Shown here in pieces: positions 8,547 to 51,086 of a stretch of 64,000 nucleotides of DNA (the first letter of the stretch is position 1; each line of letters begins with the position of its first letter). The notes beneath the pieces were generated by a model. The model did not search any database and was not told the origin of the DNA. It saw only the letters and a program-made list of their open reading frames with translations. This stretch comes from Buchnera aphidicola (Tetraneura ulmi) (lineage in GTDB: Bacteria; Pseudomonadota; Gammaproteobacteria; Enterobacterales; Enterobacteriaceae). The stretch is from positions 348,308-412,307 of the forward strand of contig NZ_OZ060366.1 of NCBI RefSeq assembly GCF_964058925.1, given 5' to 3'. Both the position numbers and the translations under genes were made by a program.

Positions 8547-8807
8547 ATGGATACTAAAAAAATAAAATCAATTCTAATAAATTCTTTATCAATAGAAGAT
8601 ATTTATGTTAACGGAAATAATGATTATATGGAAATAATAGCAATTAGTGACATTTTTTGTGGTATGTCAGATGTAAAAAAACAACAAATGATTTATTCTC
8701 CATTAATGAAATATTTTACAAATAAGAATATTCATTCCGTATCAATAGAAACATACACAAAAAAAGAATGGAAAAAAAAAAAAAAAAAAAAAAAAAATAA
8801 AAACTAA
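8547..8807 (+). CDS. ibaG: BolA-family protein IbaG (YrbA)
   Basis: A small BolA-like protein. Family members partner with monothiol glutaredoxins in Fe-S handling; E. coli IbaG is linked to acid resistance. The 86 residues align over the full length with E. coli IbaG: start MDTKKIKSILINSL, GMSDVKKQQMIYSPLM in the core, then HSVSIETYTKKEW. The last residues are a run of lysines encoded by an A26 tract. All three frames stop within a few codons after the tract, so slippage there would change only the tail. The gene murA, next to ibaG in many relatives, is not present; rplU follows directly. Confidence 0.92.
   Translation: MDTKKIKSILINSLSIEDIYVNGNNDYMEIIAISDIFCGMSDVKKQQMIYSPLMKYFTNKNIHSVSIETYTKKEWKKKKKKKKNKN
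8772..8797 (+). repeat. A26 homopolymer tract
   Basis: Twenty-six consecutive A residues form the end of the ibaG coding region (eight Lys codons plus part of an Asn codon). This is the longest single-base run noticed in the window. It ends 59 bases before the rplU start. Such a run is expected to vary in length between cells and sequencing reads. Confidence 0.9.
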
Positions 8808-11858: not shown

Positions 11859-13001
11859 ATGAATCATGAATCGTCTTTTTTAAAATTAAGAAGTAAAATA
11901 GATCTAATTGACAAAAAAATTATTCTTTTGTTAAAAGAAAGATGTTTTGTATCAAAGAGTATTGCTTTATATAAACAAAAATATAATAAACCAATCAAAG
12001 ATAAAAAAAGAGAAAAAGAAGTTATGGATAAAATTATTAATTTATCCATAAAAAAACAAATAAATTCAAAATACGTAAAAAAAATATTTAAAATTATTAT
12101 AAATGAATCAGTAATTCTACAAAAATGTATAACAAAAAAAAATAAAGATCTAAACTTACAAAAAATATTTTTTCTAGGCCCTCAAGGATCTTATTCACAT
12201 CAAGCTGCAATAAAATATTGCAAATATAATTCAGAAAAATTAAAAATGAAAAAATGCAAAAATTTTTTTCAAATAATAAAAAAAACAACCAATAAAATAG
12301 AAAATAATTTTTCTATTTTGCCAATATACAATACCTGTTCAGGTGCTATTCATGAAGTATATGATTTATTACAAAATACCAATTTATCTATTATTAACGA
12401 AATAAAACTTTCAATAAATCATTATTTATTAACTAAAGAAAAATGTAAAATAGAGAACATAAAAATCATTTATTCTCATTACCAACCCATTAAACAATGT
12501 AGTGAATTTTTAAAAAAAAACAAAAATTGGATAATTAAACATACAAATAGTAGTGCTGAAGCATTAAAAAAAATATCTCAAGAAAAAAAAACAAACATAG
12601 CTGCTATAGGAGGGAAACTAGGAAAAAAAATACATAATTTATATATACTAAAAAAAAATATTAATAATAAAAAAAAAAATATTACAACTTTTATAATTTT
12701 AGGAAAACAAAAAAAAACAACTTTTAAAGAAAATAATAAATTAATTCTAATACTAAAAAATGATATAAAATCTAATTACATCATTGACATAATTTCAAAT
12801 ATTGACAAAGAAAACATGCTAATTAATAACATAGAAGCTAGACCTTCTATAAAAAATAATGAACAAAAGATATTTTTTATTGAATTTTTTTTAAAAAATG
12901 ACATTAATTCAAAAGTTAAAAATTTTTTTATTTTTAAAATTTCAAAATTAATAAAAAAAAAAAAAATTAAAATATTAGGTTATTATCCTTCTTCTATATA
13001 A
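11859..13001 (+). CDS. pheA: Chorismate mutase/prephenate dehydratase (P-protein)
   Basis: This bifunctional enzyme converts chorismate to prephenate and then phenylpyruvate, the committed branch to phenylalanine. It has 380 residues (E. coli 386). An AroQ-type chorismate mutase helical domain fills about 1-90 (LRSKIDLIDKKII), prephenate dehydratase starts at about 105 (KIFFLGPQGSYSHQAA) and includes NITTFIILG, and an ACT domain follows to the C-terminus. In the ACT domain the feedback motif ESRP reads EARP (326-329) and the GALV motif is unrecognisable, which suggests relaxed phenylalanine inhibition. No leader peptide or attenuator is visible upstream. The role fits phenylalanine supply to the host. 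Confidence 0.95.
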   Translation: MNHESSFLKLRSKIDLIDKKIILLLKERCFVSKSIALYKQKYNKPIKDKKREKEVMDKIINLSIKKQINSKYVKKIFKIIINESVILQKCITKKNKDLNLQKIFFLGPQGSYSHQAAIKYCKYNSEKLKMKKCKNFFQIIKKTTNKIENNFSILPIYNTCSGAIHEVYDLLQNTNLSIINEIKLSINHYLLTKEKCKIENIKIIYSHYQPIKQCSEFLKKNKNWIIKHTNSSAEALKKISQEKKTNIAAIGGKLGKKIHNLYILKKNINNKKKNITTFIILGKQKKTTFKENNKLILILKNDIKSNYIIDIISNIDKENMLINNIEARPSIKNNEQKIFFIEFFLKNDINSKVKNFFIFKISKLIKKKKIKILGYYPSSI

Positions 13002-49694: not shown

Positions 49695-50159
49695 ATGAAA
49701 AATTTAAATTTAAATCTTCAAATAGTATGTATGAACAGAAATTCTATACCAAAAAGAAAAGATTTTATCTTATGGTTAAAAACTATCTATAAAGAAAAAA
49801 AATTTATAGAAATTACAATTAGAATTGTCGATAAACCTGAAATACATAATCTAAATTATTTATATAGAAAAAAAAATAAACCAACCAATATTTTATCTTT
49901 TTCTTATTTTAATAAAAATAAAAAAAATAAATCTTGTTTCTTAGGAGACTTAATTGCATGTACAGAAATAATTGAAGAAGAAGCAAAAATACAAAAAAAA
50001 TCAATTAATTCACATTGGGCTCATATTATAATACATGGAGGTTTGCATTTACTAGGATTTAACCATCTTAAATACAACGAGAGAAAAAAAATGGAAAATT
50101 TAGAAACCAAATGTCTACTATCTTTAGGTTTTGAAAAACCATATAATATCAATCAATAA
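49695..50159 (+). CDS. ybeY: Endoribonuclease YbeY
   Basis: YbeY is a zinc-dependent RNase for 16S rRNA 3'-end maturation and ribosome quality control. It has 154 residues (E. coli 155). The H-x3-H-x5-H metal site is intact in IHGGLHLLGFNH (about 114-125). NILSFSYFN and GDLIACTEII are also family-like. E. coli has ybeZ between miaB and ybeY; it is absent here. Confidence 0.95.
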   Translation: MKNLNLNLQIVCMNRNSIPKRKDFILWLKTIYKEKKFIEITIRIVDKPEIHNLNYLYRKKNKPTNILSFSYFNKNKKNKSCFLGDLIACTEIIEEEAKIQKKSINSHWAHIIIHGGLHLLGFNHLKYNERKKMENLETKCLLSLGFEKPYNINQ

Positions 50160-50199
50160 TCATTTTTACTAAATCTTACAATGAGTAAAAATAAATATA

Positions 50200-51086
50200 A
50201 TGAGTAATAATTATTACAACGAAAAAAAAAAAAAAAAAGAAGTTTTTTTTCTAATTTATTTGATCAAACAAAAAATGAAAATCCAAACAACAAAGAAGAA
50301 CTAATTGAAATTATTAAAAATTCTAAAAAAAATAAAATTATTGATTCAGATACTCGAAATATGTTAGAGGGTGTACTAAATATTTATAAAAAAAGAGTAC
50401 ATCAAATTATGATACCAAGAACAAAAATGATAACTTTAGATTTTCATTGTAATTTTAAAACTTGTATAAACACCATAATTAAATCTTCACATTCTAGATA
50501 TCCTGTAATGAGTAACGATAAAAATTATGTTAAAGGAATATTAATTGCAAAAGATTTATTACCTTTTATGCAAAAAAATTCAAAAAATTTCCATATAAAA
50601 AAAATATTACGTCCAGCTATTGTAGTCCCAGAAAGTAAAAATGTTAATTTAATGCTAAAAGAATTTAGATCTAAAAAATGTCATCTATCAATTGTGATCG
50701 ACGAATTTGGAATAGTTTCTGGACTAGTAACAATCGAAGATGTTTTAGAACTAATTGTAGGAGAAATTAAAGATGAATATGATAAAAATAAAATGTTAAC
50801 AATACATCAAATAAACAAAAGATCTTTCACAATACCTGGATTAATTGAAATAAAGGAATTTAATAAAATTTTCAAAACTCAATTCGATGATCGAGAAGTA
50901 GATACGATAGGAGGTTTAATTATGAAAAAATTAGGTAGGTTACCAAAAAAGGGAGAAAAAATATCCATTAAAAAACATCTTTTTATTGTTTCTATTTCTG
51001 ATAGTAGAAAAATCATACAAATAAAAGTTTTATTTCCAAATGAAAAAAAAATATTTAAAAAAAATATTAAATTAAAAATATTTTAA
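50200..51086 (+). CDS. ybeX: CBS-domain protein YbeX/CorC, frameshifted at an A17 tract
   Basis: YbeX has a pair of CBS domains and a C-terminal CorC/HlyC domain, linked to ribosome/envelope metabolism and Mg/Co efflux. The uninterrupted frame from 50361 covers MLEGVLNIYKKRVHQIMIPR to the end. In that frame the homology continues upstream (RSFFSNLFDQTKNENPNNKEEL, starting at 50238) without an ATG. An ATG at 50200 gives MSNNYYNEKKKK in another frame, matching the E. coli start. The frames meet in A17 (50222-50238); one added A makes a protein of 295 residues (E. coli 292). Two in-frame stops at 50205-50210 block the main frame upstream. It is probably rescued by polymerase slippage, or starts late. 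Confidence 0.8.
50222..50238 (+). repeat. ybeX: A17 homopolymer tract in ybeX
   Basis: Seventeen A residues, one short of the number that joins the ybeX start (50200) with the rest of the gene. Tracts of this length are unstable in replication and are known slippage sites for RNA polymerase in Buchnera. Confidence 0.88.

Follow-up and report, generated by a model that had tools for sequence, protein, structure and literature searches.

A frame-interrupted ybeX at an A17 tract in Buchnera aphidicola (Tetraneura ulmi) and its possible rescue by slippage

The ybeX (corC) gene of Buchnera aphidicola (Tetraneura ulmi) is interrupted in its reading frame by a tract of 17 adenines lying a few codons after its start, a break that is confirmed in the window (the whole 64,000-nucleotide stretch of contig NZ_OZ060366.1 that was analysed). 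The best explanation, to which we give slightly better than even chances, is a genuine one-base change of the tract, with ybeX still working at reduced output thanks to slippage. The A17 would then be a real genomic length change, or the length that prevails in a mixed population, and is probably young. RNA polymerase slipping on the A-run would produce a minority of transcripts with a frame-restoring number of adenines (net +1 or -2), and sliding of ribosomes on poly(A) may contribute further, either route leading to the same YbeX of about 295 residues. We infer that the tract length is correct, that slippage occurs and that full-length protein is made.

The ybeX locus

The gene lies on a chromosome of 530,976 bp (22.7% G+C) in the conserved order miaB-ybeY-ybeX-leuS, and was assigned as the ybeX orthologue from this gene order and from its best match. 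It encodes a CBS pair followed by a CorC_HlyC domain, and its body aligns to positions 13-286 of the 292 of the NCBIfam CorC model. The equivalog cut-off of this model (379 bits) is missed by the 288-aa body frame (366 bits) and by the core (319 bits), the in-frame sisters reaching 410 and 426 bits; such a score fits a missing start and fast evolution. Domain order, length and conserved neighbours are those of E. coli CorC/YbeX (292 aa; PDB 4hg0), whereas the reading frame is here interrupted at the N-terminal tract; the gene is classed as a CorC orthologue with an interrupted frame rather than as an intact one.

The original prediction placed the start codon and the body in different frames meeting in the A17, and this was borne out (Table 1). 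The frame of the ATG at 50200 reads MSNNYYNEKKKKKEVFFLIYLIKQKMKIQTTKKN and stops at a TAA (50302-50304), and the body frame (..RKKKKKRSFFSNLF..), which is -1 relative to it, runs uninterrupted from 50211 until its stop codon, whose last base is 51086. With one base added, the gene counts 296 codons, in agreement with the 295 residues announced; removing two bases also restores the frame and gives 294 aa. The first body-frame ATG after the tract is indeed found at 50361 and the two upstream stops are a TAA TAA at 50205-50210, and the body, expected to be intact over more than 840 bp, presents 849 open bases without a second lesion. An ATG at 50181, in front of these two stops, had been overlooked; translation from it is ruled out by the stops that directly follow. 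Positions 50181-50218 form an imperfect 19-nt tandem repeat (ATGAGTAAAAATAAATATA / ATGAGTAATAATTATTACA) that yields the two start-like ATGs. The only near-cognate starts of the body frame between the A17 and the ATG at 50361 are five ATT codons, whose use is possible in principle and unsupported.

The start of the gene is homologous to MSNDYSEQ and MSDDYSEQ of the two same-genus sisters (G001 and G002, respectively). In the nearest in-frame relative, G001 (locus L011), the protein begins MSNDYSEQ-KKKINKK-SFFSNLL, and the present gene with one more A would begin MSNNYYNE-KKKKKKR-SFFSNLF. The number of codons from the ATG to the conserved SFF is then equal in both, which shows that the A17 lacks one base relative to the inherited frame. 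It is also the longest tract located inside a gene body on this chromosome, where T20 and A26 exceed it but were assigned to no gene interior. The A26 (8772-8797), the longest run of the chromosome, lies in the 3'-terminal part of a BolA-like open reading frame of 86 aa (8547-8807), which it closes as KKKKKKKKNKN.

Table 1. Features of the ybeX locus (positions in the window) and other split genes of the same genome (positions on the chromosome)
Feature	Position	Strand	Description
ybeY	49695..50159	+	Upstream neighbour
Second ATG	50181..50210	+	Body frame, soon terminated by TAA TAA (MSKNKYNE, two stops)
ybeX start-frame ORF	50200..50304	+	MSNNYYNEKKKKK, then 21 out-of-frame residues, TAA
A17 tract	50222..50238	+	Meeting point of both frames, one base under in-frame length
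N-terminal segment	50239..50360	+	Body frame (SFFSNLFDQ...DTRN), before first in-frame ATG; appears mildly relaxed
YbeX/CorC core	50361..51086	+	241 aa, conserved Met codon to stop; two CBS domains and CorC_HlyC domain
dnaN split	chromosome 12195-12243
rnhA split	chromosome 235070-235097
acpS split	chromosome 238721-238734
era split	chromosome 239517-239526
rlmN split	chromosome 267689-267700
fabD split	chromosome 324532-324551
tatD split	chromosome 328334-328344

Constraint on the body and ybeX copies of related genomes

Protein distances of ybeX were ranked against 356 four-way orthologues from three relatives. The distance of the core to the sisters falls at the 28th-29th percentile, and its outgroup distance divided by that of the sisters amounts to 1.00 and 1.07 (25th and 52nd percentile of the 356 genes), so that no rate acceleration of the body was found relative to these orthologues. 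Hence, the gene was under normal constraint over nearly all of the lineage since the split from G001 and G002. The rate of the body provides no date for the indel, which may be young since both sisters are in frame. The dN/dS comparison suggested in the original prediction was run by the NG86 method against G001 and gave values of about 0.2 (core) and 0.7 (N-terminal segment of 40 codons), to which no weight was given because dS is high.

The N-terminal segment, i.e., the 40 residues preceding the ATG at 50361, qualifies this picture. In columns defined as conserved from outside relatives, mostly free-living outgroups, 5 of 12 positions have changed in the segment, compared to 1.9 +/- 1.4 predicted from other symbiont lineages, and 25 of 115 in the core. 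A conserved E-P-K now reads N-P-N, and SFFSN, NKEEL, IID and DT are still conserved. The changes exceed those of every in-frame close relative, although the fast-evolving in-frame copies L268 and L272 come close. These changes are a weak sign of relaxation, and no proof that the N-terminus is disused, and they weaken the claim of a fully maintained full-length form. The selection that had been predicted on the body is seen in its unaccelerated rate and is less clear in this first segment.

Among the other ybeX copies, those of both sisters and all but one of about 30 from small, Buchnera-type symbiont genomes are in frame. The exception, L270 (1499-2331), belongs to a genome (G246) of about 0.5 Mb and 22% G+C with the same gene order, and its frame likewise breaks at the A-tract near the N-terminus: it reads MSNNQSKKK before the break and IFF... 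after it, harbors an A11T8 and is one base short, with a body (...KKKNFFSLLFHRLFNDEPK...) open over 273 residues and none of the 12 conserved columns of the N-terminal segment changed. In-frame lineages separate L270 from the present genome in the YbeX tree, so that the two breaks are most simply independent events. Many ybeX copies present an A-run, of up to A13, ahead of the conserved (G/S)FF, where it is created by lysine codons; the recurrence at this place thus likely reflects a mutational hot spot. The gene may also be lost altogether: ybeX is absent from G223 and retained in G020 of the same genus, G009, a small genome of the same family, keeps an eroded ybeX-like remnant with five stops (C1:420492-421031), and no ybeX appears for a Cinara cedri strain in a table of PMC3246468.

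Tract-associated frameshifts in four genomes

Every A/T run of at least 8 nucleotides was examined in the present genome (G000), its two sisters and G032, the flanks being searched separately against proteins of relatives. Besides ybeX, seven genes of the present genome are split between frames at or near A/T tracts (Table 1), all one base short, and G001, G002 and G032 each present six to eight split loci. Overall, 24 of the 27 split loci need one additional nucleotide (p = 5e-5) and the other three need -1/+2. The tally excludes ybeX, whose N-terminal piece is too short for detection and which is itself also a +1 case, as well as a locus matching G032_262041 in G000 and G002, located near an rRNA/tRNA region and likely a spurious open reading frame. 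Some genes are split in more than one genome: fabD in G000 and G002, around one common tract; rlmN in G000 and G032, at positions that differ; and recC, a name given from its sequence without a family scan, in both G002 and G032. The +1 bias could reflect a deletion bias, under-calling, or the survival of only those loci that +1 slippage can mend. The genes dnaN, era, acpS and fabD are essential in E. coli, and their loss would be expected in no cell.

Among the coding tracts of at least 12 nt whose frame could be checked, length fits the frame in 29 of 32, from which we conclude that tracts of up to about 15 nt mostly have their correct length in the assembly, the A17 lying beyond this range.

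Explanations of the break and known systems

Rescue by slippage is favoured because the body is open, conserved and unaccelerated, because lesions of the same class affect dnaN, era, acpS and fabD in the same genome, because most split loci need +1, the change that transcription indels in homopolymers of Buchnera mainly bring about, and because ybeX of L270 carries its break at this N-terminal tract too, with its N-terminal segment unchanged. In Buchnera, 151 of 157 transcription insertions were located in homopolymeric runs, mostly as single bases, at a rate rising exponentially with run length as measured up to 11 nt (PMC5574713). Corrected transcripts of frameshifted genes in an aphid and an ant symbiont made up 12-50%, as cited in PMC5009743. 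Sliding of ribosomes, a route absent from the original prediction, is robust on A11 and longer in E. coli (PMC4363877); the A17 exceeds this length, and the same protein would be expected. A single tRNA-Lys, with anticodon UUU, is encoded in the present genome. On the contrary, a genome-wide RNA study of a Buchnera, in which runs did not exceed 11 nt, reported no frame-restoring transcription error (PMC5574713). Replication slippage biased towards deletions, or under-calling of homopolymers, would produce the +1 bias just as well. Since both sisters are in frame, the shift may also be so recent that conservation offers no test of it, and the N-terminal segment seems mildly relaxed.

That an intact body is therefore expressed by slippage, as had been argued, does not follow, since the same pattern would result from an indel of recent origin, from an error of one base in the assembly or from initiation inside the gene at the ATG at 50361. 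Under-calling during sequencing or assembly, with a true tract of A18 (or A15) and an intact ybeX, is unlikely but by no means far-fetched. An A17 is beyond the lengths that short reads call well, the assembly resembles a draft and contains N gaps, each of the eight split loci in this genome lacks a single base, the outcome expected of under-calling, and a broken dnaN is hard to believe; on the other side stand the coding tracts of at least 12 nt, nearly all of which fit their frame, even if the A17 is itself longer than those, and deep-coverage work reporting 1-18 such frameshifts per Buchnera genome (PMC3164680). Translation may otherwise begin at the ATG at 50361, which corresponds to a conserved CorC Met (E. 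coli position 57), and yield a 241-aa protein, the N-terminus being disused. Such a core would be complete, with both CBS domains and CorC_HlyC, solved structures exist for CBS-only CorC constructs (3nqr, 5yz2), and the segment upstream has changed more than in any in-frame close relative. However, the fast-evolving L268 and L272 also lose residues there while in frame, L270 bears the same break without any such change, four motifs of the segment persist, and 50361 lacks a Shine-Dalgarno sequence (0.4 kcal, the median of all ATGs), although the ybeY start lacks one as well; we regard this internal start as quite improbable.

It is similarly doubtful, and no more than faintly probable, that ybeX is a very recent pseudogene killed by the indel, in which decay has just begun. 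The gene is dispensable in related symbionts, as illustrated by G223, G009 and Cinara cedri, and the mild relaxation inferred for the N-terminal segment would suit such a beginning, but the absence of a second lesion and of any acceleration in the body, together with lesions of the same class in dnaN, era, acpS and fabD, speaks against it. Programmed -1 ribosomal frameshifting was considered and rejected as unlikely: the start frame contains a slippery A_AAA_AAA and the shift is in the -1 direction, but there is no stimulatory structure 3' of the A17, where 50239-50338 folds worse than shuffles (z = +0.92), and no conservation of the slippery site, about 30 related ybeX copies being in frame.

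With one indel in a homopolymer of about 9 or more nucleotides, an intact rest and an unaccelerated body, ybeX belongs to the known class of homopolymer frameshifts of Buchnera and Blochmannia. Frameshifts of the same kind are found in Buchnera of Myzus and in Blochmannia (PMC3890641, PMC3017870). The slippage-rescued genes of these symbionts (Tamas et al., 2008, PNAS, as related in PMC3164680, PMC3017870, and PMC5009743) resemble ybeX in their single poly(A) indel, intact rest, unaccelerated evolution and class of organism. They differ, as far as these accounts describe them, by runs that are usually of 9-12 nt, by the genes involved and by the position of the break, here 8 codons after the start. 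The present case stands out only by the length of its tract, by its independent recurrence in another lineage and by the bias in direction. In the main texts of the freely accessible papers searched, no report of ybeX among homopolymer-frameshifted genes was found. RNA polymerase slippage at A9 in Thermus thermophilus dnaX and in IS elements (PMC1088944, PMC5009743) gives mixed frames, as would be expected here, but makes needed products, whereas the out-of-frame product of ybeX is a 34-aa dead end and its site is not conserved. Ribosome sliding at the A17 would be unprogrammed and would occur without a stimulator.

If rescue is real, the A17 would be a natural slippage reporter far longer than the Buchnera runs measured so far (at most 11 nt, PMC5574713), and could decide between the findings of that work and earlier claims of rescue. 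The +1 bias across the four genomes offers a direct test of survival by rescue vs. mere deletion bias, and annotators should call such genes neither dead nor intact from an assembly alone. More speculatively, the N-terminal A-run of ybeX might be a recurrent and tolerated expression throttle: independent Buchnera lineages would drift to a run lacking one base, which is what +1 slippage can mend, and slippage of polymerase or ribosome, instead of regulation, would set the output of a magnesium-homeostasis protein, an idea that we hold to be very improbable.

The assembly also comprises a trpEG plasmid contig, which shares 82% identity with pBTc2, a plasmid of Buchnera aphidicola, and a small contig (G000:C2, L313, 1751 bp) that matched no plasmid and could be either part of a plasmid or a stray contig.
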